This document shows positions 1-9,316 of a DNA stretch of 9,316 nt, one piece after another (within the stretch, counting starts at the first letter, position 1; the number at the start of each line of letters is the position of its first letter). Made by a program: the position numbers and the translations under genes. The stretch covers positions 1 through 9,316 of the forward strand of contig JAJRVA010000122.1 of assembly GCA_024277485.1 (NCBI GenBank), in the 5' to 3' direction. This DNA is from Deltaproteobacteria bacterium (GTDB lineage Bacteria > Desulfobacterota > Desulfobulbia > Desulfobulbales > Desulfobulbaceae). The notes under the pieces were generated by a model. That model did not search any database, was not told the DNA's origin, and saw only the letters and a program-made list of their open reading frames with translations.

Positions 1-855
1 CTCGGCATCCTGAACCACAGCAATGAACTCATTGCCCTCAAGGCCTGCGGCATCCCGCTGCGCAATATTGTCGCCCCGATTGTTGCGGCCGGGGCCATTG
101 CCAGCGTTCTCCTGCTTGCCATGTCGCAGTTCGTTCTGCCCAAAACAATTGCCGCCACCAACAAAATCTGGATCGAAGAGGTGAAAGGCAGGCTGCCGCT
201 GGGCATTCTCAGAAACGGCCGCTACTATTACCAGAGCGGGGATGGATTCTATTCCTTTGTCAGGCCGGACCCGAAGAAACACGAATTTCTCAACTTCTCC
301 TATTCAACCTGGGACGGGAACTACCGGCTCACATCGCTGATTGCGGCCAAAAAAGCAGCCTGGAAGAACGGGGTCTGGACATTATTTGACGGCCAGCTGC
401 AGACAGCCGCCGGAGAGGACAGTTTTGAGACGGAAATATTCAGGAACCGCGATTACGAACTCCCTGATCATCCGTCTGATTTTTTTGTTCCCGAGTACCG
501 TTCCCTTGAACTTTCCCTGACCGGCCTGTTTCTCGATGCCAAGCGAAAACAGTCCAAAGTGGAAGCCAACACCGCATGGGCGGAGTTTTACGGGCGCATC
601 TTTTACATTCTGTTAGGTCTCCCGCTCCTTCTTTTGGGGCTGCCCATCCTGCTTGTCGTTTACCGGAAATGGGGCCGGGACCTGTCCCTTGCCATTCCGG
701 TCAGCTGCGGCCTCGCCTTTGCCTGCTGGGGGGTCTGGGGGACTCTGCAGTCCCTGGCCAAGGCGGGGTATCTCCCACCCCTGGTGGCGGCAGGGTCGGT
801 GCATACAGCTATCGCGATGGGAGGCATTTACCTCCTGTTGCGTGAGGACATCTGA
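1..855 (+). CDS. lptG: LptF/LptG-family LPS export permease, C-terminal part (probably LptG)
   Basis: The reading frame is open from base 1, so the 5' end lies outside the window; 284 residues are visible of a family usually about 360-390 long. The product is an inner-membrane subunit of the LptB2FG ABC transporter, which extracts lipopolysaccharide and feeds it to LptC/LptA. The first residues contain the family signature around 'NELIALKACGIPL', then a hydrophobic segment (about residues 21-45). A periplasmic beta-rich domain follows (about 55-190), then three C-terminal membrane helices (about 200-220, 228-250, 256-280) starting at 'FYGRIFYILLGLP'. LptG is favoured over LptF only because no second permease follows and the usual order is lptF-lptG; the fold alone does not separate them. 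The TGA at 853-855 is 3 nt before the next ATG, so this gene leads an operon with the redox cassette downstream. Confidence 0.85.
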   Translation, partial: LGILNHSNELIALKACGIPLRNIVAPIVAAGAIASVLLLAMSQFVLPKTIAATNKIWIEEVKGRLPLGILRNGRYYYQSGDGFYSFVRPDPKKHEFLNFSYSTWDGNYRLTSLIAAKKAAWKNGVWTLFDGQLQTAAGEDSFETEIFRNRDYELPDHPSDFFVPEYRSLELSLTGLFLDAKRKQSKVEANTAWAEFYGRIFYILLGLPLLLLGLPILLVVYRKWGRDLSLAIPVSCGLAFACWGVWGTLQSLAKAGYLPPLVAAGSVHTAIAMGGIYLLLREDI

Positions 856-858
856 ACA

Positions 859-1611
859 ATGGCCGGCAACAGGGTCGGCATTGTCGGTGTTCCACCCCTT
901 GCCATCATCAGGAAACTGAACAGCAGGGGAGCCTGTATTGTCGACCTTGACGAGCCGCAGGCAAGGGAAGCGATTGACCTGACATCCCACTATATTCCGA
1001 AAGTGTACTGCGCCATACTGCGAACGGTTGTCCTGAATGCCATGCATCTCGACCTGGACGAAATCTATATTGACGTGGGCCCGGGAAAATGTGACTGCGC
1101 ACTGCATACCGCCATAATCCTGGAAAACATGCTCTCAATCCCTGTCATCAGGACCCGCAACCTTGATGATACGCCTTTCGGCACCCCTGTCTCCAGGACC
1201 AGGATGCCTCTCACGGAAAAGTTTACCATCATAACCGGGGGGATCCAGACGGAGAAACGTAACCAGTATCCTCCCTGCATCCCGAGGGCGGGGTTCTGGG
1301 GCGTGCCGCCCCGGGATTTTTCCATACTCTCTCTTTTTCCCGACACGACCCATATTTACGGGTGGACGCGGTGCATGGAAAACAAGACACCGGCAGACCT
1401 TGAGATGGAAATACATGTCAATCCCTCCATCCCCACGGTCTTTTTTGCCCAGTCATTCTGTGCCAAGACCGCCCTGGCCCATCATCTTGCCCGGAAACAT
1501 CCCAGGGCGCTCTACCTGGACTCCGATGTTACTGCCGGCAGCAGTGCCAGGGCCAAAATCGAGGCCTTTCTTGAACTGTCAGGTGTCCGTACGGACAGGA
1601 AAAACAGATGA
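859..1611 (+). CDS. Compact 2-hydroxyacyl-CoA dehydratase D-component-like (putative Fe-S) protein
   Basis: A 250-aa protein with no signal peptide or membrane segment. The ATG has a good Shine-Dalgarno (GTGAGGA, 843-848) inside the end of lptG. I read it as a divergent, shortened relative of the HgdA/B, HadBC and double-cubane family. Seen: cysteine 51 in 'IPKVYCAILR', the CD pair at 78-79 in 'GPGKCDCAL', cysteine 201 in 'FFAQSFCAK', and the C-terminal 'LYLDSDVTAG...KIEAFLEL' (218-240). Each resembles a conserved block of that family, where three cysteines per subunit hold a [4Fe-4S] cluster. Four more cysteines (26, 80, 140, 172) are present. Family members are usually 380-420 aa, so about 150 residues are missing. 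The next gene is a dehydratase-type activase overlapping by 4 nt, which strongly supports a redox partner role. The substrate is unknown. The similarity is by eye and could be only fold-level; it may be a family of its own. Confidence 0.5.
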   Translation: MAGNRVGIVGVPPLAIIRKLNSRGACIVDLDEPQAREAIDLTSHYIPKVYCAILRTVVLNAMHLDLDEIYIDVGPGKCDCALHTAIILENMLSIPVIRTRNLDDTPFGTPVSRTRMPLTEKFTIITGGIQTEKRNQYPPCIPRAGFWGVPPRDFSILSLFPDTTHIYGWTRCMENKTPADLEMEIHVNPSIPTVFFAQSFCAKTALAHHLARKHPRALYLDSDVTAGSSARAKIEAFLELSGVRTDRKNR

Positions 1612-2273
1612 TCCTGGCTGATTTCGGCACGTCATACTGTAAAATCCTGGACACCGACAGCAATGAAACGCCGGCTATCCTGCCGACCCGGGAGATCGTT
1701 TCCGGATTCCAGGCCGACCTTGCCACCGGGCACAACGCCGGACGACGCAGCCGCCTAAGCATAAATGAGCTGACCGCCCTGGCCCGCGGCGGAGAGCGCC
1801 TTATCGCGGAACCGGACTTCGTGCTGCTGGACTGCGGCAGCCGGGACATTAAATTTATCCGCTATGAAAACAACCGGGTCGCGGATATGGGCTGGAACGC
1901 GGAATGCGGCGCTTCAATGGGGTTCACCATTGAACTGCTGAAAAAATACTATGACCTGGACTACGATGCCATTCCGATCCCGGACAGGGGATTTTCCGTA
2001 ACCTGCGGGGTGCTTGGCATGAGTCATATATTTGATGCCGTAATCAACGGTCTGTCAGAAAAAGAGGCTGTGGCACGTTTTGTGTACGGGATCGCCATGA
2101 ACGGGTACCGGTTTGCCGGTTCACCTGACCGGCTGTACCTTTCCGGCGGTCTCTGTGACAATGCCCTTTTTGTCGGGAGTTTCCCCTGCGAGGTAATACG
2201 GTTGGGCAGGTTTGTCCTGCTCTGCGGCCTGCAGGAATATCTCAAAAAAAACAGACAGCAATGCATCACGTAA
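1608..2273 (+). CDS. BadF/BadG/BcrA/HgdC-type ASKHA ATPase (Fe-S reductive activase)
   Basis: This family uses ATP binding and hydrolysis in a homodimer to push an electron at very low potential from a shared [4Fe-4S] cluster onto a partner metalloprotein. Seen in the 221-aa product: phosphate-1 loop 'ADFGTSYCK' (4-12); 'ATGHN...SINELTALARGGERL' (39-65), the usual helix before the second loop; phosphate-2 'LLDCGSRDIKFI' (73-84), matching the family DIGGQDxKxI; cysteine 100 in 'NAECGASMGF' and cysteine 133 in 'VTCGVLG', the positions of the two cluster ligands of HgdC; the adenosine loop 'LYLSGGLCDN' (176-185). It is about 40 residues shorter than HgdC, mostly between the first strand and residue 39. 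The ATG overlaps the previous stop (ATGA) and is preceded by AGGAA at 1597-1601, so translation is coupled. The family call is firm; the natural partner is inferred from the neighbouring gene. Confidence 0.85.
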   Translation: MILADFGTSYCKILDTDSNETPAILPTREIVSGFQADLATGHNAGRRSRLSINELTALARGGERLIAEPDFVLLDCGSRDIKFIRYENNRVADMGWNAECGASMGFTIELLKKYYDLDYDAIPIPDRGFSVTCGVLGMSHIFDAVINGLSEKEAVARFVYGIAMNGYRFAGSPDRLYLSGGLCDNALFVGSFPCEVIRLGRFVLLCGLQEYLKKNRQQCIT

Positions 2274-2277
2274 CCGG

Positions 2278-3099
2278 ATGAACAGTGGAGCTGTTTACAC
2301 AACAAAATTTCTGTCCTGGAAGCAAAGTCTGCCTCCTCTGCTTCATGCTGCGGATCTGGCACTGGGGGTAAACACCAGCGGCCGGGACAGTATCCTCATC
2401 AAGCCGAACCTCGTTGAAGCTCTTGCCCCGCCGATTACCACGCCGGCAGACCTGGTGGAGGAACTGATCGTATACCTGCGGGCGGAAACCAATGCCAGGA
2501 TCATCATCGGTGAAGGCAACGGCGCCATGCATTACGATACCTGGCACTGTTTCCGGGAACTGGGTTACACGGCAATCGCAGAAAAACTGGACATTGAACT
2601 TGTCGACCTGAACGATGCGGATCTTGTCCCTCTCAAAAACAATGCATGCCTCCGCCTGCCCGAGATGCATCTGCCCCGCCTGGCCCTTGACAGTTACCTG
2701 ATTTCCGTTCCTGTTCTCAAGGCCCACTCTCTTACAGGCGTGACCCTCACTCTGAAAAACATGATGGGCCTGGCGCCTCCCTCCCGTTACCAGCGAGGCA
2801 GCAGTTGGAAAAAATCAGCCTTCCATGACCGGGCCCAGGACGCGATAGCCGATCTGAACAGGTACCGCATCCCTGACTTTACCCTGCTGGACGCAACTGT
2901 CGGCATGGCCAGGGCCCACCTCTGGGGCCCCACCTGCGACCCAACCGTGGCCAGGCTTGCGGCCGGATATGATCCGGTGGCCATTGACACCTACGGAGCC
3001 GGACTCCTGCAAAAAAACTGGCGGAGTATCGGTCATATCAGGTCCCTGCATGGTGAACTTGGTTCTGCAGAACCTCTGGATGTTATTGAGGCAGAATAG
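2278..3099 (+). CDS. DUF362 domain protein
   Basis: A 273-aa cytoplasmic protein of the DUF362 family, whose biochemical role is not established; many members carry extra ferredoxin-like cysteine motifs. Seen: 'SILIKPNLV' (38-46), 'TTPADLVEELI' (54-64), 'IIIGEGNG' (75-82), 'LISVPVLKAHSLTGVTLTLKN' region (141-161) matching the family's VPKxKTHxxTGxTLxxKN block, 'FTLLDATVGM' (201-210), and 'GYDPVAIDTYG' (230-240). No CxxCxxC motif is present, so it has only the core domain. The longest open frame begins at a TTG (2212) inside the previous gene, but I prefer the ATG at 2278, 4 nt after the upstream TAA, because the family's N-terminal region fits there. No clear Shine-Dalgarno precedes it, so translation probably depends on coupling. 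It is the third gene of the cassette after the activase. The stop lies only 17 nt from the stop of the convergent Sel1 gene, leaving no room for a separate terminator. Confidence 0.82.
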   Translation: MNSGAVYTTKFLSWKQSLPPLLHAADLALGVNTSGRDSILIKPNLVEALAPPITTPADLVEELIVYLRAETNARIIIGEGNGAMHYDTWHCFRELGYTAIAEKLDIELVDLNDADLVPLKNNACLRLPEMHLPRLALDSYLISVPVLKAHSLTGVTLTLKNMMGLAPPSRYQRGSSWKKSAFHDRAQDAIADLNRYRIPDFTLLDATVGMARAHLWGPTCDPTVARLAAGYDPVAIDTYGAGLLQKNWRSIGHIRSLHGELGSAEPLDVIEAE

Positions 3100-3116
3100 T
3101 GCCCCGTGTGTTTTGT

Positions 3117-3654
3117 TTATTTGCCAAGTCGCTGCAAGGCCTCAACTGCAAAAGGCTCCCCCTGTGCCGCCGCCATTGTATACCAGAAAAGAGCCGCAAC
3201 TGTATCCCTGTCCCCTGCCTGTCCGTCTTCATAAAAAATACCAATAGCGGCCTGGGCAGCGGCGTGGACACGGACCGCTGAACGGAGAAACCATTTCAAG
3301 GCCATGTTGTAGTCCCTTTTTCTATTTTCTCCCAGTTCATACATGGTGGCAATGCGGAACATGGCCTCAGCGCTGCCGCCCGATGCTGCCTGCCGAAACA
3401 ATTTCCACGCCATCTCCGGGTCCGCCTTTGTCCCCCAACCCCGGAGATAGAGAGTGCCCAGGCAACATTGCATCACTGTCCCCCTGTTCTGCCTGTTCAC
3501 GGAGCCGCGCAAACTCCTGAGTACTCACCTCCGGTAACCCAACCTGGTCAGTGCAATATCCTGTGAGGGGACGCGACTCTGCAAAAACCGTCTGAACCAT
3601 AAAGGAATTAACCGCCGGAAACAGAAACAGGAAGAAGGGAAAAAACTTATCCAT
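3117..3654 (-). pseudogene. Sel1-repeat exported protein, frameshifted
   Basis: Two overlapping minus-strand frames together give one Sel1-like repeat protein of about 178 residues. The first (from ATG at 3654) has a signal peptide ending 'VFA|ES' and reaches 'EQAEQGDSDAM' at 3466. There the frame must change to continue with 'LGTLYLRGWGTKADPEMAWKLF' spread over the second frame, through about three 36-residue Sel1 repeats ('AEAMFRIATMYELG', 'AAAQAAIGIFYEDGQ'), to a TAA at 3117-3119. Between the ATG codon (3468-3466) and the CTG of LG only four bases remain where the repeat consensus needs six, so a 2-nt deletion near 3462-3465 is the simplest reading; one extra base is the alternative. The unbroken 5' frame runs on to 3367 as a nonsense tail without repeats. 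Sel1 proteins are helical scaffolds for protein contacts. It is either a decayed gene or a sequencing error; the start has only a weak ribosome site. Confidence 0.75.
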
Positions 3655-3763
3655 GCGTCATTTTCATTTATTAAAGCGGAAAAGGGGACATCATTGAAGT
3701 ACAACAGTCAGTTTTCAGCTGAGTTCTGTCTTATATATCTTGTAGAGCGACAGCATGATGTTA

Positions 3764-3791
3764 TTTCCCGGTGTTCATCTTTTTCGGGAAA
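3764..3791. repeat. Inverted repeat TTTCCCG-N14-CGGGAAA
   Basis: Perfect 7-bp arms separated by 14 nt, in the 222-nt gap between the Cys-repeat gene and the Sel1 gene, about 110 nt upstream of the latter's start. It is not followed by a T tract on either strand, so it is a poor terminator. A second site of the same geometry lies at 6784-6811. A separate small hairpin, GAACC-N5-GGTTC (3798-3812), followed on the minus strand by GCGGCTTTT, could be a weak terminator for the Cys-repeat gene. Nothing else was recognised in 3655-3876. Confidence 0.45.
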
Positions 3792-3876
3792 AGCCGCGAA
3801 CCACAACGGTTCATCGTTCAACTGCCCGATTTACCATTGTACTCGTTCAGCCTGAGTGACTTTTGCAAGGTCATCA

Positions 3877-4287
3877 TCATTTCGCCTCAACAACTTTGAG
3901 TGCCTGGGTGCATCGAGTGCTGATTCTGCCGGAATTTTTTTCCAGGCACTTCAGGACGCGGCCTTCTCCGACAGCTACATCAGCGCAGAATTGTTCCAAG
4001 TCCGCATCGCATTCATTTGCCACATAGCTGAGTGCGGCAACGAACCTCTCAAGCTGCACTGCCGCATCATAAAGGGCATACTCACACTGACCGGTCAGTT
4101 TGTCGGAATGGGCATACAGGCAGGCCAGGATACGGCCGTCGCCCGGGGTAACATTGCCGCAATAGCCGGTAAGCTCTTTCTCGCAGCCCCTGGCAACAGA
4201 CTCCACCAGCTTCTCGACTGCCCATGCTGAAGACACAGAGATGAAGAACATGGTCACAACCGTGAACAAGACAACTCTTTTTTTCAT
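3877..4287 (-). CDS. Secreted cysteine-rich repeat (GLG1-type) protein
   Basis: A 136-aa exported protein. The frame is open further upstream, but the ATG at 4287 has a strong AAGGAG (4294-4299) at 6 nt and opens a classical signal peptide, 'MKKRVVLFTVVTMFF...AWA' with cleavage after residue 23. The mature part consists of two tandem repeats with identical cysteine spacing, C-x7-C-x12-C-x11-C: cysteines 35, 43, 56, 68 and 93, 101, 114, 126. Each contains the 'GDGRILACL' / 'GEGRVLKCL' core of the cysteine-rich Golgi (GLG1/MG160) repeat, also found in bacterial periplasmic proteins. Eight cysteines probably make four disulfides in the periplasm; the exact role is not known. The gene ends in three successive TGA codons (3871-3879). 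It is transcribed divergently from the orphan gene at 4510; no convincing promoter of its own was seen. Confidence 0.85.
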   Translation of the reverse strand: MKKRVVLFTVVTMFFISVSSAWAVEKLVESVARGCEKELTGYCGNVTPGDGRILACLYAHSDKLTGQCEYALYDAAVQLERFVAALSYVANECDADLEQFCADVAVGEGRVLKCLEKNSGRISTRCTQALKVVEAK

Positions 4288-4418
4288 AACCAACTCCTTT
4301 TCAATTTTTAACTCCCCTGAAATATGCTTTTCTTTTTCACAATTAGCCGTTTTGTAAGTATCCGGCAACCAGTATCAGACATTCTTTTCTTCCTTTTCAG
4401 TCCAATCTCGCCTGCTGC

Positions 4419-4448
4419 TTGACAAGAAGTGCAACACAGGCGTATAAT
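4419..4448 (+). promoter_or_regulatory. Consensus sigma70 promoter
   Basis: TTGACA at 4419-4424 and TATAAT at 4443-4448, both perfect hexamers, separated by 18 nt. Transcription would start near 4455, giving a leader of about 55 nt to the ATG at 4510. This is the strongest promoter-like sequence in the window. It also rules out the GTG at 4429, which lies inside the spacer, as the start of the gene. Confidence 0.8.
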
Positions 4449-4509
4449 AATACAGGTACCACACCGTGACACACACAGGCACGGGCGGCTTTTTCAACCG
4501 GATGGACAC

Positions 4510-5673
4510 ATGAGCCTTGCAGACAAGCAGATAGCCCAACACGAGCAGGATGCCAAAGCCAGGCACCTCTCTGCTGCTCATCATATCAGGAACATCCCGC
4601 TTCCGCCCTTGTTCAGAAATCACCTTGAACAACGTATTCTGCCGCTGCTTGACCGGATAGGTTTTGACAGTGACATTGCCGGCAGTATATTCAGAATTTC
4701 GTCCCCGGCATGGAAATCAATGGGATCGGCAACACCTCCCAACCTCCTTGTACATCCGGCCCTGATCAGGGATCTCCAGGCAATACGACGGGATATCGTC
4801 TCCCGTGAAAGGCAGAAAACGGAAAACCCCACGTCCCCGGTTCGTACCTTGCCCCGGGAACTGGCCGAACTGCTGAAGACCATCCCTGCCACCTGGATTA
4901 TCCTTCCCCGGGCCCTTACGTTTCTGACAAGAGATGATTCCCGCTGCCTGATCGTGTACCTGCAGCACCTGGACCGGGAGACCAACCTTGCGTTTGAAAA
5001 AGTCCTGGTACGGATACTGATTGAATTTATCGGGAATTACAGCCTTAAATTTATCAGTTCAGCGCTGCCGAAAAAACAGATGAGAGAGGCCATTTTTTAC
5101 GGCTACACGGCAATGTTCTGGAAAAACCTCCGCCAGCCACCAGCCGGATTAGAGGATTTACTTGTTTACAGAAATTATCTTTCCTGGGCCAGAGCCTTCA
5201 GCAAAAGAGCATCCTGCAAAGACACGGAAAAAGAAACTGCTCTTGCCGAAATGGAGGAAATGGCAAACACCATCCTGCCTGACCGGAAAATCCTCCGCCT
5301 GGCCTCTAAAAAAAACCGGAAGGCCGCGGACCTGCACATTTCTCTGCGACACGGCCGACCAGGCATCAACCATGCTGTCCGATATTTTACCATGAACAAC
5401 TCAGCAGAATGCGGCAACAGACATAACCAGATTTCCCGCAGGACACTGCCAATCCGGATAAATGCTCTTTTCAGGGAACTGCGGAACAGTTACGACCAGG
5501 AGACACAACAAACCAGGGAGTTTATTCACACTTTTCTGGTGGAACTTTCAGCCGCATACAGTCCTCACGCAGTTCGGCCGGATAGTACCGGAAAACGTTC
5601 TCCGACTCCACCGGATTTCACCCGGAACCGTATGGCCTGCCTGGTACAGGACTTCAGCCGGTCTCTGCACTGA
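4510..5673 (+). CDS. Orphan hypothetical protein, 387 aa, behind a strong promoter
   Basis: I do not recognise a family. The ATG at 4510 is chosen because it is the first in-frame start after the predicted transcription start; its ribosome site is only moderate (GGAT at 4500-4503). The protein is soluble, without signal peptide or membrane helices, rich in Arg/Lys and Leu, and looks largely helical. Notable stretches are 'LPRELAELLKTIPATWIILP' (114-133), 'FEKVLVRILIEFIGNYSLKF' (162-181) and 'IRINALFRELRNSYDQ' (315-330). There is a polar, Pro/Arg-rich tail (351-372). Five or so scattered cysteines show no metal-site pattern. It is the only plus-strand gene among minus-strand neighbours, has its own promoter and its own terminator (5691-5731), and so is a one-gene unit. 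That arrangement suits an independently acquired or regulatory gene, but this is only inference. The antisense frame across its 5' end has no protein-like features. Confidence 0.6.
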   Translation: MSLADKQIAQHEQDAKARHLSAAHHIRNIPLPPLFRNHLEQRILPLLDRIGFDSDIAGSIFRISSPAWKSMGSATPPNLLVHPALIRDLQAIRRDIVSRERQKTENPTSPVRTLPRELAELLKTIPATWIILPRALTFLTRDDSRCLIVYLQHLDRETNLAFEKVLVRILIEFIGNYSLKFISSALPKKQMREAIFYGYTAMFWKNLRQPPAGLEDLLVYRNYLSWARAFSKRASCKDTEKETALAEMEEMANTILPDRKILRLASKKNRKAADLHISLRHGRPGINHAVRYFTMNNSAECGNRHNQISRRTLPIRINALFRELRNSYDQETQQTREFIHTFLVELSAAYSPHAVRPDSTGKRSPTPPDFTRNRMACLVQDFSRSLH

Positions 5674-5690
5674 AAAAAACATCACGCGTA

Positions 5691-5731
5691 AAAAAGCCGA
5701 ACAGCACCGCACGGGTACCACTCGGCTTTTT
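5691..5731. terminator. Bidirectional rho-independent terminator
   Basis: AAAAAGCCGA (5691-5700) pairs perfectly with TCGGCTTTTT (5722-5731) across a 21-nt loop. The A-tract and T-tract flank the GC core, so the hairpin ends in a U-run on either strand. It lies 17 nt after the orphan gene's TGA and 65 nt after the minus-strand Lys-rich gene, serving both convergent units. Confidence 0.8.
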
Positions 5732-5796
5732 AGCTTCACAGGAACGCTTCGCGGCCTGACTCAATTCCTTGCCGGACAGCAGCGGAACCGACAGGC

Positions 5797-5964
5797 CTAC
5801 TTCTTCTTGCCTTTCTTTTTCTCTTCCTTTTTTTTCTTTTTTGCTGCCTTTTCTCTTTTTTTCAGATGGAAAAGAATGGGGCATCTCTTACAGTGCTTGC
5901 CATTCTTTTTCCTGAACTTGCCGCAGCACTTCTTTTTTGGTTTTTTCTTCCTTTTTTTTCCCAC
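5797..5964 (-). CDS. Lysine-rich Cys4 miniprotein (55 aa)
   Basis: The start is GTG at 5964 with an excellent AGGGAG Shine-Dalgarno 7 nt upstream and an in-frame TAA just before it; the stop is TAG at 5797-5799. About half of the 55 residues are Lys, with a few Arg. The centre (residues 12-29) is 'KCCGKFRKKNGKHCKRCP': cysteines 13, 14, 25 and 28, a C-C-x10-C-x2-C pattern that looks like a small zinc-binding knuckle. It is flanked by a basic N-terminal arm (2-12) and a Lys/Glu-rich tail (35-55). The charge suggests binding to nucleic acid or ribosomes, but that is inference. It lies 28 nt after the FKBP gene and before the shared terminator, so the two probably share a transcript. Long A-runs make the frame sensitive to indels; I checked it base by base. 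The larger frame on the same strand across this region lacks a start with a ribosome site and the cysteine motif. Confidence 0.65.
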   Translation of the reverse strand: MGKKRKKKPKKKCCGKFRKKNGKHCKRCPILFHLKKREKAAKKKKKEEKKKGKKK

Positions 5965-5992
5965 CCCGTTTCTCCCTGGTTATGCAGGCACC

Positions 5993-6733
5993 TTACTTCG
6001 GTTCAACAGTAAGGTTACCCGGAGCGGGAGGGGTGTTTTCTATACCAAGCAGTTCTACTTCAAAAATCAGTATGGAACCGGGTTCGATAACCGGGGGAGC
6101 GCCGCGGTCTCCATAGGCCAGTTTCGGCGGCAGGAAAATCCGGAATTTGGAACCGACGTTCATCAACTGCAGCGCCTCGGTCCATCCCGGTATAACCTGG
6201 TTGAGGGGAAAAACGACCGGATCGTTGCGCGTATATGAACTGTCAAACTCGGTCCCGTCCAGCAGGGTTCCCTTATAATGCACCTTGACCGTATCCTCGG
6301 CTTTCGGCTGTTTGCCGTCTCCCTGGGTGATGACCTTGTACTGCAGCCCGGACGCTGTAGTTTTCACCCCTTCCTTTGCACCATTTTCCTTAAGAAAATC
6401 CTCGGCTGCCTTGTTGTTCTTCGTTATCATGTCAAGAGTCTTTTTCAGGCGCTCTTCCTGCTGCTTCTGGGAAAATGCCTGCTGTACTGCTGCAGCCTCC
6501 TCAGCCGTCATCAACGGCTTGTTCCCCTTGTACGCATCAATCAGGCCCTGATGCAGTACAGTAAGGTCAAGGTCCTCATTCAGATTCTTGAAATACGCGC
6601 CAAGGTCCAGCCCCAGGGCATAGCTCAATTTCTGACTTTCCGTTTTCAACTCTACGTTTTTCTGTTCCTCTGCAACGGCCTGACCTGCCAAGACCAGTGC
6701 GAACAGCAGCAGGCAGCTTGTAATAATCCTCAT
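5993..6733 (-). CDS. Exported FKBP-type peptidyl-prolyl cis-trans isomerase (FkpA/Mip-like)
   Basis: A 246-aa periplasmic folding catalyst/chaperone. The start ATG at 6733 has AAGGAG (6740-6745) 6 nt upstream; an overlapping ATG at 6737 is out of frame. Signal peptide 1-21 ends 'QAVA|EEQ', without a lipobox. Residues 30-120 form the FKBP_N dimerisation region, with 'QKLSYALGLDLGAYF' and a long charged helix rich in Lys/Glu. Residues 127-232 are the FKBP domain: Y153 in 'VHYKGTLLDGTEFDSS' with F163 and D164, F175, 'VIPGWTEAL' (V180, I181, W184), Y207 in 'LAYGDRGAPP' and F224 in 'LIFEVELL'. All expected active-site residues are present, so it should be an active isomerase. The length is normal for FkpA/Mip. 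It is probably co-transcribed with the Lys-rich miniprotein downstream. Confidence 0.92.
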   Translation of the reverse strand: MRIITSCLLLFALVLAGQAVAEEQKNVELKTESQKLSYALGLDLGAYFKNLNEDLDLTVLHQGLIDAYKGNKPLMTAEEAAAVQQAFSQKQQEERLKKTLDMITKNNKAAEDFLKENGAKEGVKTTASGLQYKVITQGDGKQPKAEDTVKVHYKGTLLDGTEFDSSYTRNDPVVFPLNQVIPGWTEALQLMNVGSKFRIFLPPKLAYGDRGAPPVIEPGSILIFEVELLGIENTPPAPGNLTVEPK

Positions 6734-6783
6734 GCATAACTCCTTAATTTTAAATTGATCATTTCATTGTGCACAACTACGTA

Positions 6784-6811
6784 TTTCCCACATGGTATAC
6801 TATCTGGGAAA
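6784..6811. repeat. Inverted repeat TTTCCCA-N14-TGGGAAA, possible operator
   Basis: Perfect 7-bp arms and a 14-nt centre, 28 nt in all, 50 nt upstream of the FKBP start. It overlaps the predicted -10 element of that gene, as an operator would. It shares TTTCCC-N16-GGGAAA and total length with the site at 3764-3791. Confidence 0.4.
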
Positions 6812-6821
6812 AAATTTACAA
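6794..6821 (-). promoter_or_regulatory. Candidate sigma70 promoter for the FKBP gene
   Basis: On the minus strand TTGTAA (6821-6816) is followed after 16 nt by TATACC (6799-6794), each 4 of 6 to consensus, in an AT-rich region. It sits in the 120-nt gap after the Smr gene, which supports separate expression of the FKBP gene. A 5-bp hairpin at the Smr stop codon (TCCTG-TGA-CAGGA, 6849-6861) followed by ATTTTG might be a weak terminator for the upstream operon. Confidence 0.35.
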
Positions 6822-6853
6822 CCTGATATACTGCATAACGGGCAAAATTCCTG

Positions 6854-7300
6854 TCACAGGATAACAAGCGTAACACCGGGGTTGGGTTTCCTGACAAGCC
6901 CGGTTATAAAGGGAAAACGTCGTATCATGTGCCGAAAGCGCCCAAACCGTTTCCCGCAGTTCTCGCCCGGCAGAAAATCATTGATCTCCTTTCTGTCGCG
7001 CAGATGCTGCAGCCGGGCGCGGACCTCTCTTCTGATCGCCCCGCCCTTGCCGCTTGATCCGTAGCCGTGTATCAGGGCCAATACACGGTATCCCTGCATC
7101 CTGGAGGCCTCCAGCTCACCCTGCAGGCGGACAAGCGCATCCCGGACAACGGGCATCCCCTTTTCAAGATTGACAACCCTGTATGACGGGGAATCACTTT
7201 TCTGCTGGGGCAAAATCCTGGCTGCTTTGCAGAAGGGGCACTGTGACAGTCGGCCGGCAAACTCATTGCCGCACACGTCACAGACAGGAAGATACTCCAT
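6854..7300 (-). CDS. Zinc-ribbon Smr-domain protein
   Basis: A 148-aa soluble protein. The ATG at 7300 lies 7 nt after the RSH stop; TTG/ATG codons at 7327 and 7324 would overlap the RSH end and add residues before the zinc ribbon, so I prefer 7300. Residues 7-24 are a CxxC-x10-CxxC zinc ribbon ('CDVCGNEFAGRLSQCPFC'). Residues about 41-100 and the C-terminus form an Smr domain: 'LALIHGYGSSGKGGAIR' (74-90) is the conserved HGxGxGxG loop, followed by the helix 'REVRARLQHL', and the final strand 'NPGVTLVIL'. Smr domains bind or nick DNA or RNA and occur in MutS2 and in small stand-alone proteins. Odd point: the usual first motif LDLHG reads 'VVNLEKGM' here, so its histidine is missing. The tight linkage suggests co-translation with the RSH gene. 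Confidence 0.8.
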   Translation of the reverse strand: MEYLPVCDVCGNEFAGRLSQCPFCKAARILPQQKSDSPSYRVVNLEKGMPVVRDALVRLQGELEASRMQGYRVLALIHGYGSSGKGGAIRREVRARLQHLRDRKEINDFLPGENCGKRFGRFRHMIRRFPFITGLVRKPNPGVTLVIL

Positions 7301-7307
7301 GTGTATA

Positions 7308-8336
7308 TCAGCGCCTTCGCACATCAATTATTTCGGGCAGCTGCATCAGGTGCTGCCGCAGGGTCTGCAGATGTTCCAGATCCGACACCTCCAGGACCAC
7401 ATCAAGCTCAGCCACATTGTCCGAGGTGGTCCTGGCATTGAGGGAGACAATGTCCGCATCATCGTGGCTGATGGTGCTGCTGATATCAACCAGGATATTT
7501 TTTCTGTTTTCAGCGCGTATCAGCAGCTCAGAGCGATGCCTGCCCTGACCTGAACCGGCCCATGAAACAGACATCCAGCGACGCGGATCTGTTGCTTTCA
7601 GATTGACGCAATCAACCTTATGGATGGAAACTCCCCTCCCCGTAGTAATGAAACCGACTATCTCATCACCGGGAACAGGCTTGCAGCACTGGCTGACCTT
7701 GACCAGCATATTGTCAACCCCATCAATATCAAAAACCTCCTGGCGGGATGTTTTTTCCCTCTGCGCTCCACGTTGACGCGCCTTTTCAAGCTGTTCGGCT
7801 TCCTTCCGTTTTGCCTCTTCTTCGCGCAGTTCGTCCGGGACAAGGGCAAGCAGCAGGTGATGGACCGTTATTGCCCCGGAACCCACCTTGACGAGCATAT
7901 CGTCAAGGGAGTTGCAGCCAAGCTTTTTCAGCATCGCCCTGAGATGACCGCTTTTCAGCAGCTTTTTCAGGGTAGTATCATGTTTTTTCAGTTCCCGTTC
8001 ACAGATTTCCCTGCCCAGGAGCAGGGCCTTTTCCTTTTCCTCCCTCCTCAGCCACTGCCTGATCCGTGCCCTGGCCCGGCTTGTCTTGACAATCTGCAGC
8101 CAGGCCCTCTTGGGCTGCTGATTTTTCCGGGTGATAATCTCAACGATATCACCATGCTGGAGCTTGTACTTGAGCGGCACAAGCTGGCCGTTTACCCTGG
8201 CGCCCCTGCAGTGGTCCCCCACTGCCGTGTGGATCGAATAGGCAAAATCGATCGGTGTACTTTCCCGCGGCAGTTCCCTCACCTCCCCGTTCGGGGTGAG
8301 GACGAAAACATCCGGCTCAAAGAGTTCGCCACGCAC
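7308..8336 (-). CDS. rel: RelA/SpoT homologue, C-terminal regulatory half (TGS-helical-ZFD-ACT), downstream of an in-frame stop
   Basis: This is the distal half of one long RSH gene, in the same frame as the half at 8349-9316. Seen: a TGS domain starting 'LFEPDVFVLTPNGEVRELP' with 'STPIDFAYSIHTAVG' and 'GARVNGQLVPL'; the helical region with 'KRAWLQIVKTSRARARIRQW'; the conserved-cysteine zinc-finger region 'VSQCCKPVPGDEIVGFITTG' with 'GVSIHKVDCVNL'; and a C-terminal ACT/RRM domain ending 'LPEIIDVRRR'. These domains sense the ribosome and uncharged tRNA and restrain the catalytic half. The first available start is a GTG at 8336 with no Shine-Dalgarno, 12 nt after the TAA, so separate translation would need reinitiation. 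The residues between the stop and that GTG (FLET) are still clearly homologous RSH sequence, which shows that the gene was recently continuous, or that the stop is an error. It abuts the Smr gene downstream. Confidence 0.8.
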   Translation of the reverse strand: MRGELFEPDVFVLTPNGEVRELPRESTPIDFAYSIHTAVGDHCRGARVNGQLVPLKYKLQHGDIVEIITRKNQQPKRAWLQIVKTSRARARIRQWLRREEKEKALLLGREICERELKKHDTTLKKLLKSGHLRAMLKKLGCNSLDDMLVKVGSGAITVHHLLLALVPDELREEEAKRKEAEQLEKARQRGAQREKTSRQEVFDIDGVDNMLVKVSQCCKPVPGDEIVGFITTGRGVSIHKVDCVNLKATDPRRWMSVSWAGSGQGRHRSELLIRAENRKNILVDISSTISHDDADIVSLNARTTSDNVAELDVVLEVSDLEHLQTLRQHLMQLPEIIDVRRR

Positions 8337-8348
8337 TGTTTCGAGGAA

Positions 8349-8351
8349 TTA
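8349..8351 (-). other. In-frame nonsense codon (TAA) interrupting the RSH gene
   Basis: Minus-strand reading is ...GAT CAT GGT TAA TTC CTC GAA ACA..., i.e. 'DHG*FLET', in the linker that in intact RSH proteins reads roughly xxEFLExxxxDLF. A single G-to-T change from GAA (Glu) would create it. Both flanks keep frame and homology, so this is a point lesion, not a rearrangement. TAA is used as a normal stop elsewhere in the window, so codon reassignment is unlikely. Confidence 0.85.
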
Positions 8352-9316
8352 ACCATGATCCTCCACCTCCTGCAGCGACTGGACGAGTTTTTTCAGGTCC
8401 CTGAACAGACGGACATCACGGTTGCTTATCTTCTGGCCTTCCTTGTATGCCCAGTGCGCGGCAACACCTTCCTGGGCAACCCGGTCCATGTCTTCGGTCC
8501 GGATCTGGATCTCGATGAAGTTTTCATGCGGCCCGATAACAGTAGTATGCAGGGACTGGTAATTATTTGCCTTGGGGACACTGATAAAGTCCTTTATCCG
8601 TCCCGGCACCGGCTGCCAGTTGGCATGAATCGTGCCGAGAGACTCGTAGCACTCTTTCACCGTGCGCAGAATTATCCGGAAGGCAACCTTGTCATAGACC
8701 CTGTCCAGGGGAATATTCTGGGCAACCAGCTTCTTGTAGATCGAATACAGGTGCTTGGGGCGGCCGATTATCCGGATCGGCTTGATGCCATTCTCGCCCA
8801 GCTTGGCGTGCAGGATGCTGATCACCTCTTCGACGTATTTCTGGCGTTGCCCAAGGGTACTCTCGAGACGACTGGTGATGTCCGCATACTCGACAGGGTA
8901 CAGATACTGGAAGGCAAGGTCTTCAAGCTCCCGCTTCATCCAGTCAATACCAAGGCGGCTGGCAAGGGGCGCGTACAGGTCCATGGTTTCACGGGCCGTA
9001 CTCTGCCGGCGCTCCCGGGGTTCCCTGCCGAGCGTAACCATGTCCTGCAGCCGGTCGGCAAGCCTGACCAGAAGAACGCGGATATCAGCGCTCATGGCCA
9101 GGAAGAGCTTTCTGATGTTTTCCGCCTGGTGGGCCAGCGCGCTGCTGTATTGCACGTTTGTTATACGGGTGGCTCCATCGACGATCCTGGCCACATCAGG
9201 ACCGAAAAACTCTTCCAGCTCCACAAGGGTCGCGACTTCCTCCTTGAGTGTCCCGTGCAGCATCCCGGCCATGATCGTGTCCAGGTCAAGCTTCATGGTG
9301 GCAAGGGTTGTTGCCA
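8349..9316 (-). CDS. rel: RelA/SpoT homologue, N-terminal catalytic half ((p)ppGpp synthetase; degraded hydrolase motif), 5' partial
   Basis: The frame is open to the window edge (about 50 residues missing), so the ATG at 9296 is internal. With that Met as residue 1, the pseudo-hydrolase domain has 'MLHGTLKEE' (12-20) where active enzymes have LLHDxxEDT: the His stays but HD is HG and ED is KE. 'LADRLQDM' (79-86) replaces LADRLHNM. Hydrolysis of (p)ppGpp is therefore unlikely. The synthetase domain is intact: 'GRPKHLYSIYKK' (178-189), 'YDKVAFRI' with D202, 'YQSLHTTV' (246-253), 'EIQIRT' with E262, and 'GVAAHWAYKEG'. The activity motif reads 'PGRIKD', the RxKD type usual in bifunctional Rel, not the ExDD type of monofunctional RelA. 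It ends at a TAA (8349-8351) in the linker before the TGS domain. As it stands the product would be a synthetase without ribosome-sensing domains. Confidence 0.88.
   Translation of the reverse strand, partial: ATTLATMKLDLDTIMAGMLHGTLKEEVATLVELEEFFGPDVARIVDGATRITNVQYSSALAHQAENIRKLFLAMSADIRVLLVRLADRLQDMVTLGREPRERRQSTARETMDLYAPLASRLGIDWMKRELEDLAFQYLYPVEYADITSRLESTLGQRQKYVEEVISILHAKLGENGIKPIRIIGRPKHLYSIYKKLVAQNIPLDRVYDKVAFRIILRTVKECYESLGTIHANWQPVPGRIKDFISVPKANNYQSLHTTVIGPHENFIEIQIRTEDMDRVAQEGVAAHWAYKEGQKISNRDVRLFRDLKKLVQSLQEVEDHG

Follow-up and report, generated by a model that had tools for sequence, protein, structure and literature searches.

A compact dehydratase-fold protein and its adjacent short ASKHA activase: a candidate two-component reductase in a Desulfobulbaceae genome

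ATP-driven activases are, beside the nitrogenase-type enzymes, a main biological route to electrons at potentials below that of ferredoxin, and those of their partners with known function mostly act on esters of coenzyme A (CoA). What receives the electron of a short activase that is encoded next to an equally compact protein? This question is raised by a 9,316-nucleotide contig of a Deltaproteobacteria bacterium of the family Desulfobulbaceae (GenBank assembly GCA_024277485.1, contig JAJRVA010000122.1, positions 1 to 9,316; hereafter the window). On its forward strand gene A (859-1611, 250 amino acids) is followed by gene B (1608-2273, 221 amino acids), whose ATG overlaps the TGA stop of A, and by gene C, which encodes a DUF362 protein. 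An earlier note made from the letters of the DNA had placed the three open reading frames where we find them and had interpreted them as one cassette of a dehydratase-like Fe-S protein, an activase and a DUF362 protein. We computed the predicted fold, cysteine conservation, ATPase motifs, pairing and distribution of the encoded proteins. In our reading A and B probably constitute a minimal two-component, ATP-driven low-potential Fe-S reductase which is independent of CoA and resembles the enzymes of the benzoyl-CoA reductase (BCR), 2-hydroxyacyl-CoA dehydratase (HAD) and double-cubane cluster protein (DCCP) type, with A as the proposed [4Fe-4S] electron acceptor and catalytic component and B as its proposed ATP-driven electron donor.

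Gene B as activase and gene A as putative acceptor

Sequence comparison supports the assignment of B as an ASKHA activase with both cluster cysteines, as the earlier note had proposed. A profile built from 39 relatives matches three solved activases, namely DCCP-R (7yyl_E, E 7.4e-9), HgdC (1hux, 1.8e-7) and the activator of 2-hydroxyisocaproyl-CoA dehydratase (4eht, 2.3e-6). B itself matches no Pfam family at E <= 1, and thus not PF01869, which is matched by 11 of 29 members of its family (best E 5.4e-6); the NCBIfam model CoA_E_activ (TIGR00241) is reached at E 4.7e-5 with 23 bits, below its cut-off of 125.4. Cys100 (codon 1905-1907, + strand) falls on the cysteine of the HgdC motif NDKCAAGTG and Cys133 (2004-2006, + strand) on that of STCTVFAESEV, i.e. 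on the two cluster cysteines of the solved activases. Both are invariant in alignments A2 and A4 and are proposed to bridge the dimer. The motifs DFG..K, DCGSRD.K and LSGGL, which we take to be the phosphate and adenosine motifs, show little or no variation, and B thereby combines the ASKHA ATP motifs with two bridging-cluster cysteines as activases do. Compared to HgdC the protein is shortened mostly ahead of residue 32. Its homologues are named 'activator of 2-hydroxyglutaryl-CoA dehydratase', 'ATPase' or hypothetical (two listed rows).

Gene A matches no Pfam family at E <= 1 and no NCBIfam model, and wherever its homologues are named among the matches listed they are called hypothetical. 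The locus is not a chance occurrence, since 1495 homologues of A and 1205 of B are found at E <= 1e-3. For the alignments, A1 holds 45 of 120 listed homologues (1495 found), A5 holds 23 of 36 extracted dehydratase reading frames (L130 and L152 were left out for a wrong frame, others as near-duplicates or for their length), and A6 (55 rows) and A7 (97 rows) were picked by hand for spread; frames with stops were removed (3 of 114 for A, 1 of 113 for B).

The cysteines of A are more numerous than the three spaced residues of the earlier note. There are seven (26, 51, 78, 80, 140, 172 and 201), four of which (51, 78, 172 and 201) are conserved, while positions 80, 140 and 222 vary among 55 diverse homologues. 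Cys51 (codon 1009-1011), Cys78 in a KCD motif (1090-1092) and Cys201 in a QSFC motif (1459-1461), all on the + strand, are cysteine in 55/55. By local alignment in hhalign they occupy the three proximal-cluster positions of the PF06050 superfamily, as Cys51 and Cys78 are placed on the two invariant cysteines of the PF06050 alignment and Cys201 on the cysteine of FC(T/Q)PY. Further invariant residues are Lys77, Trp169, Glu174, Gln198 and Lys203 as well as Asp29, Asp31, Lys121 and Trp147. PMC11971306 describes a [4Fe-4S]-OH2 cluster on Cys95, Cys128 and Cys380 of BzdO and an [8Fe-9S] double cubane on Cys36, Cys73, Cys100, Cys263, Cys293 and Cys327 of BzdN. Taken together with this ligand pattern, the conserved cysteines suggest that A seems to carry three proximal cluster ligands, Cys51, Cys78 and Cys201 (proposed ligands 1, 2 and 3). 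The fold and the three-cysteine pattern resemble those of the class I benzoyl-CoA reductases BzdNO and MbdON (8s02, 9g87, 9gai), down to the spacing of 27 residues between Cys51 and Cys78, equal to that of Cys73 and Cys100 in BzdN, and to an invariant glutamine three residues ahead of the last ligand (Gln198-Cys201 in A, Gln324-Cys327 in BzdN).

The fourth conserved cysteine, Cys172 (codon 1372-1374, + strand; cysteine in 54/55), sits between strands two and three of the C-terminal domain, in the segment where double-cubane relatives have ligands of their distal subcluster. This segment should correspond to ligands 263 and 293 of BzdN; the exact match is uncertain because the secondary structure suggests one ligand and a weak global alignment the other. 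The N-terminal distal ligand position is lost, with GVPP in A where DCCP has FCVYVPEE. Judged from the alignments, the cysteine set of A lies between that of a plain [4Fe-4S] protein and that of a double cubane.

The model of A points to a compact protein related by fold to the dehydratase family, and in this respect the earlier note's dehydratase-like label was borne out. Its predicted fold comprises the two alpha/beta domains in the family arrangement, but the intermediate three-helix domain and the N-terminal helix are missing: the protein opens directly with the first strand, and a single helix (118-130) links the two domains. According to PMC11971306, BzdN and BzdO have three domains each, and the three-helix domain and N-terminal helix form a stabilising bundle (section 7) which also helps to build the channel for the phosphopantetheine and 3'-phospho-ADP moieties of CoA. 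As A lacks the helices of this channel, it would not bind CoA esters in the customary manner.

These features set A apart from each known class. DCCP, which works with DCCP-R (6eno, 7yyl, 7yzm), has 421-422 residues and retains the N-terminal extension and intermediate helices that A is without; A also has four conserved cysteines in place of the six ligands of an [8Fe-9S] cluster, where the six are the BzdN list and the DCCP cysteines are taken from the alignment. BzdNO and MbdON are heterodimers with a CoA channel, whereas A is encoded without an adjacent second subunit; a pair of homologous subunits, typical of HAD and class I BCR enzymes, is not found among the neighbours scanned. In comparison with HadBC and the HgdC-type activators (3o3m, 4eht, 1hux) both A and B are shorter. 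We have therefore not filed A under PF06050, HAD, BCR or DCCP, as features of each were looked for and found wanting. That all three proteins would be short, as first noted, holds for A (379-447 residues in solved relatives) and for B (243-276 residues), but the length of the DUF362 protein is unremarkable.

Pairing and distribution of the two genes

We scanned the best 80 of 194 A loci in contigs drawn at one genome per species. B directly follows A in 79/79 testable loci, and the eightieth contig stops 122 bases past A. The two reading frames overlap in 56 of the 79 pairs by the start choice of our script, and the median gap is -4. One of these B starts is over-extended (gap -642), which leaves the script with a count of 78 adjacent pairs where the coordinates give 79. 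Adjacency was counted by tblastn, with L024 left out for B, because automatic gene calling missed A in many loci (it gave anchors in 63/95 sources), where longer antisense reading frames won.

The pairing is further supported by a sample of 116 genomes of the order to which G001 belongs (G001 is the source of locus L034, Desulfobulbus alkaliphilus), presumably Desulfobulbales. Both genes are present in 105, neither in nine, and contig-edge fragments of B only in two (A 105, B 107 in total); in these last two, G321 and G362, the B pieces start at contig base 1 or 2. A nearly always occurs once, with two full copies in G305. A is further found in 8/8 sampled genomes of one other class, in 5/5 of another and in 24 of 297 genomes drawn across the phylum. 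The names given to distant homologues, where there are any, include Armatimonadota, Melainabacteria and Cyanobacteria SIG30. That 105 of the 116 genomes of the order have the pair, nearly always in single copy, suggests a biosynthetic, housekeeping or maintenance reduction and not a catabolic one. The pair may not be strictly essential, since nine genomes are without it, three of them of 4.8-4.9 Mb.

Ten of the 24 A-bearing genomes of the phylum draw have no PF06050 match at E <= 1e-6, and as the only partner of a known type found for B in them is A, A is likely its partner there. In four of the ten, B is also the sole match to an activase model (E <= 1e-3). The other six (G001, G017, G020, G058, G123 and G221) contain open frames of 1,204-1,548 residues with two activase matches. 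A mirror-tree comparison of 61 loci and the window gave a correlation of r = 0.75 between A and B distances, with 0.64 and 0.72 against LptG and a partial r of 0.55 given LptG, which is consistent with co-evolution of A and B, though not strongly so.

The DUF362 gene does not share this behaviour. Gene C (2278-3099, + strand, 273 amino acids from its ATG) starts 4 bases past the end of B and was correctly named at the outset, matching PF04015 with 146.4 bits (gathering cut-off 24, E = 1.5e-42) over model positions 1-199 of 200. In the 73 loci with enough downstream sequence (six others fall short of this), a DUF362 gene follows B in only 15 and is missing there in 58. Of the 24 A-bearing genomes, six have a strong homologue (E < 1e-60) at a site away from A-B, and none was found in the other 18; two of 24 genomes without A also have one. 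The two in A-less genomes lie at G019:C49:14282-15085 (57%) and G024:C1:3063972-3064748 (42%). With close homologues in genomes without A, the window's DUF362 subfamily has a life of its own. Its coupling in the window is real but not general, and the protein is an accessory outside the core pair. Of the co-occurrence expected for all three genes, the part concerning A and B stood, that concerning DUF362 did not.

Proposed mechanism and its alternatives

We infer the clusters, pocket, electron flow, CoA-independence and substrate class as follows. A homodimer of B would hold one [4Fe-4S] cluster between the Cys100/Cys133 pairs of its two subunits, which a ferredoxin-like donor would charge. 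B would then bind ATP and dock on A, and ATP binding and hydrolysis would drive one electron at a time into a buried cluster held by Cys51, Cys78 and Cys201. The fourth iron of this cluster would face a pocket with Cys172, and Cys172 together with probably some of Lys77, Trp169, Glu174, Gln198 and Lys203 would replace the second half of the double-cubane cluster. Because the N-terminal helix and the intermediate helical domain that help to form the BzdNO channel are absent from A, its substrate may be either a molecule other than a CoA ester that is small or polar, or else an inorganic or thiol ligand in bound form. A is thus apparently a CoA-independent acceptor with its own short activase.

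Several observations weigh against this assignment. PF06050 is reached by only 2 of 55 members of the A family (best E 0.0021) and by A itself not at all, and unrelated families give similar or better E-values for family members. The hhalign probabilities of A against the family are low to modest (3.6 to 55%), and a full-length global run pairs Cys201 with a different family cysteine. To our knowledge no CoA substrate is known for DCCP, yet it keeps the helices, and their loss therefore speaks against CoA only through their role in BzdNO. One or more PF06050 matches are present in 14 of the 24 A-bearing genomes, completeness was not given for the genomes of the order and phylum samples, and no substrate gene is consistently linked to A-B.

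What else could the pair be? A might be a miniature DCCP in which a double-cubane cluster, or a bridged cluster of another kind, is retained and serves to reduce small molecules, inorganic or unsaturated, perhaps in detoxification. DCCP is among the closest folds to A, DCCP-R is the best sequence match of B, and four cysteines are one beyond the need of a plain open-site [4Fe-4S] cluster; according to PMC11971306, moreover, new functions arose by loss of sub-clusters. The same paper gives six cysteines for the [8Fe-9S] cluster of BzdN, against which A offers four conserved ones with the N-terminal ligand position gone, and we regard this explanation as unlikely. A somewhat poorer prospect is that B acts through A as a relay on a metalloenzyme or corrinoid protein, a partner which it would repair or activate in the manner of RACo and related ASKHA activators. 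RACo resembles B as an ASKHA ATPase that lowers the potential of an electron. The wide occurrence of the pair in its order would suit such a role, as would a cluster of divergently oriented genes that lies a few genes upstream of lptG-A-B in 50 of 95 sources and of which the member scanned resembles RACo. This cluster is not beside A-B in two other clades, the B family matches PF01869 with no RACo model among its matches, and RACo, as far as we know, needs no A-like relay.

Very unlikely, in our view, is that A forms one subunit of a classical acyl-CoA dehydratase or benzoyl-CoA reductase whose full-size PF06050 partner is encoded elsewhere, given the ten A-bearing genomes without such a match. 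In agreement with the earlier note, no acyl-CoA enzyme is found among the Pfam and NCBIfam matches of the scanned A-B neighbours, and no second dehydratase subunit either. The three-gene cassette originally proposed, with DUF362 as a required third component, is highly improbable: the 4-base spacing in the window and the 15 loci with the same order favour it, and the 58 loci without the gene downstream and the 18 A-bearing genomes without a strong homologue contradict it. We give equally little credit to a non-redox reaction in which sulfur or another ligand is transferred at the open site of a [4Fe-4S] cluster and B serves solely as an ATP-dependent reactivase. The model here is the thiouridine desulfidase TudS, a compact relative within the superfamily whose three-cysteine cluster has an open iron, as is proposed for A. 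By description TudS has a single domain, against two alpha/beta domains and an adjacent activase for A, and none of the 105 A-bearing genomes of the order was found to lack B. TudS is not listed by VIA, where an absence excludes nothing.

Returning to the two-component reductase, we tentatively consider that A-B may represent a new enzyme class: the smallest ATP-driven low-potential reductase of a non-CoA metabolite yet, working through a half-dismantled double-cubane site (a three-cysteine [4Fe-4S] cluster and a free active-site cysteine). It would then be a core function in the order of the window and also, by way of more distant homologues, in bacteria under the names Melainabacteria/Cyanobacteria and Armatimonadota. 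A literature search returned no title or abstract describing the pair, most subscription journals lying outside its scope.

Some further ideas were tried and rejected. Selenocysteine in A was considered as some matches were flagged for an internal TGA; L091 and L101 have no stop inside the alignment, and there is none in G042, G215 and G237. Replacement of epoxyqueuosine reductase was tested as a guess, since this enzyme performs a reductive deoxygenation; 22 of the 24 genomes with A have QueH, and QueG above its cut-off is rare with or without A (1/54). A defence system or phage gene found no support, with no PADLOC or PHROGs match for A, B or C. In viral contigs no relative was found, as 160 stretches matched the pattern and none passed tblastn.

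Neighbouring genes and significance

In the window A begins 3 bases past the end of a gene for an LptG-type lipopolysaccharide export permease (1-855, + strand; PF03739, E 1.5e-44), whose 5' end lies beyond the window. Among the window's relatives lptG directly precedes A-B in 70 of 74 testable loci, in some with lptF ahead of it, and genes of the DHH family and GlmU-like genes lie further up in about 40 of 95 sources. At L113:4503-6164 (- strand) the RACo-like gene encodes an ASKHA corrinoid activator that matches PF14574 at E 5.6e-90. No LptG match was obtained at the loci from two other clades. In the second of the three clades LysS-, LolE- and BamA-type genes lie downstream of A-B in 5/5 loci, with a LolD-type gene in addition at L111, where names were given from Pfam domains. 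An envelope function suggested by LptG was rejected as weak; several neighbours touch the envelope, and no mechanism was found.

The third clade carries a GloB-like metallo-hydrolase gene after A-B in 7/7 genomes and an RNase Z-like gene upstream in four of the seven, i.e. two genes of the metallo-beta-lactamase fold, with a BacA gene in two loci. Two loci of this clade have NuoE/NuoF/HoxU-type genes downstream; the NuoEF-type genes would fit an electron-input module, which is not general. In four genomes of the clade the metallo-hydrolase gene adjoins a gene for a protein with a CxxCC-type motif, which at L107:4626-5432 (- strand) has 269 residues and no Pfam or NCBIfam match.

Elsewhere in the window, a RelA/SpoT-like gene (7308-9314, - strand) is split by an in-frame TAA between its RelA_SpoT and TGS domains and may be a pseudogene, a sequencing error or a real split. 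A small protein (3877-4368, - strand) carries a hydrophobic segment close to the N-terminus and matches the Cys_rich_FGFR repeat twice (PF00839, E 7.5e-15), a repeat better known from animal Golgi proteins. An open reading frame of 414 codons (4429-5673, + strand) has no Pfam match at E <= 0.01.

PMC11971306 calls the physiological role of DCCP unclear. The A-B pair would offer a clean system for asking about the non-CoA chemistry of the activase machinery, and it also bears on the evolution of double-cubane sites into open [4Fe-4S] sites. It provides an initial interpretation of more than 1000 related proteins, which are called hypothetical where named among the matches listed.

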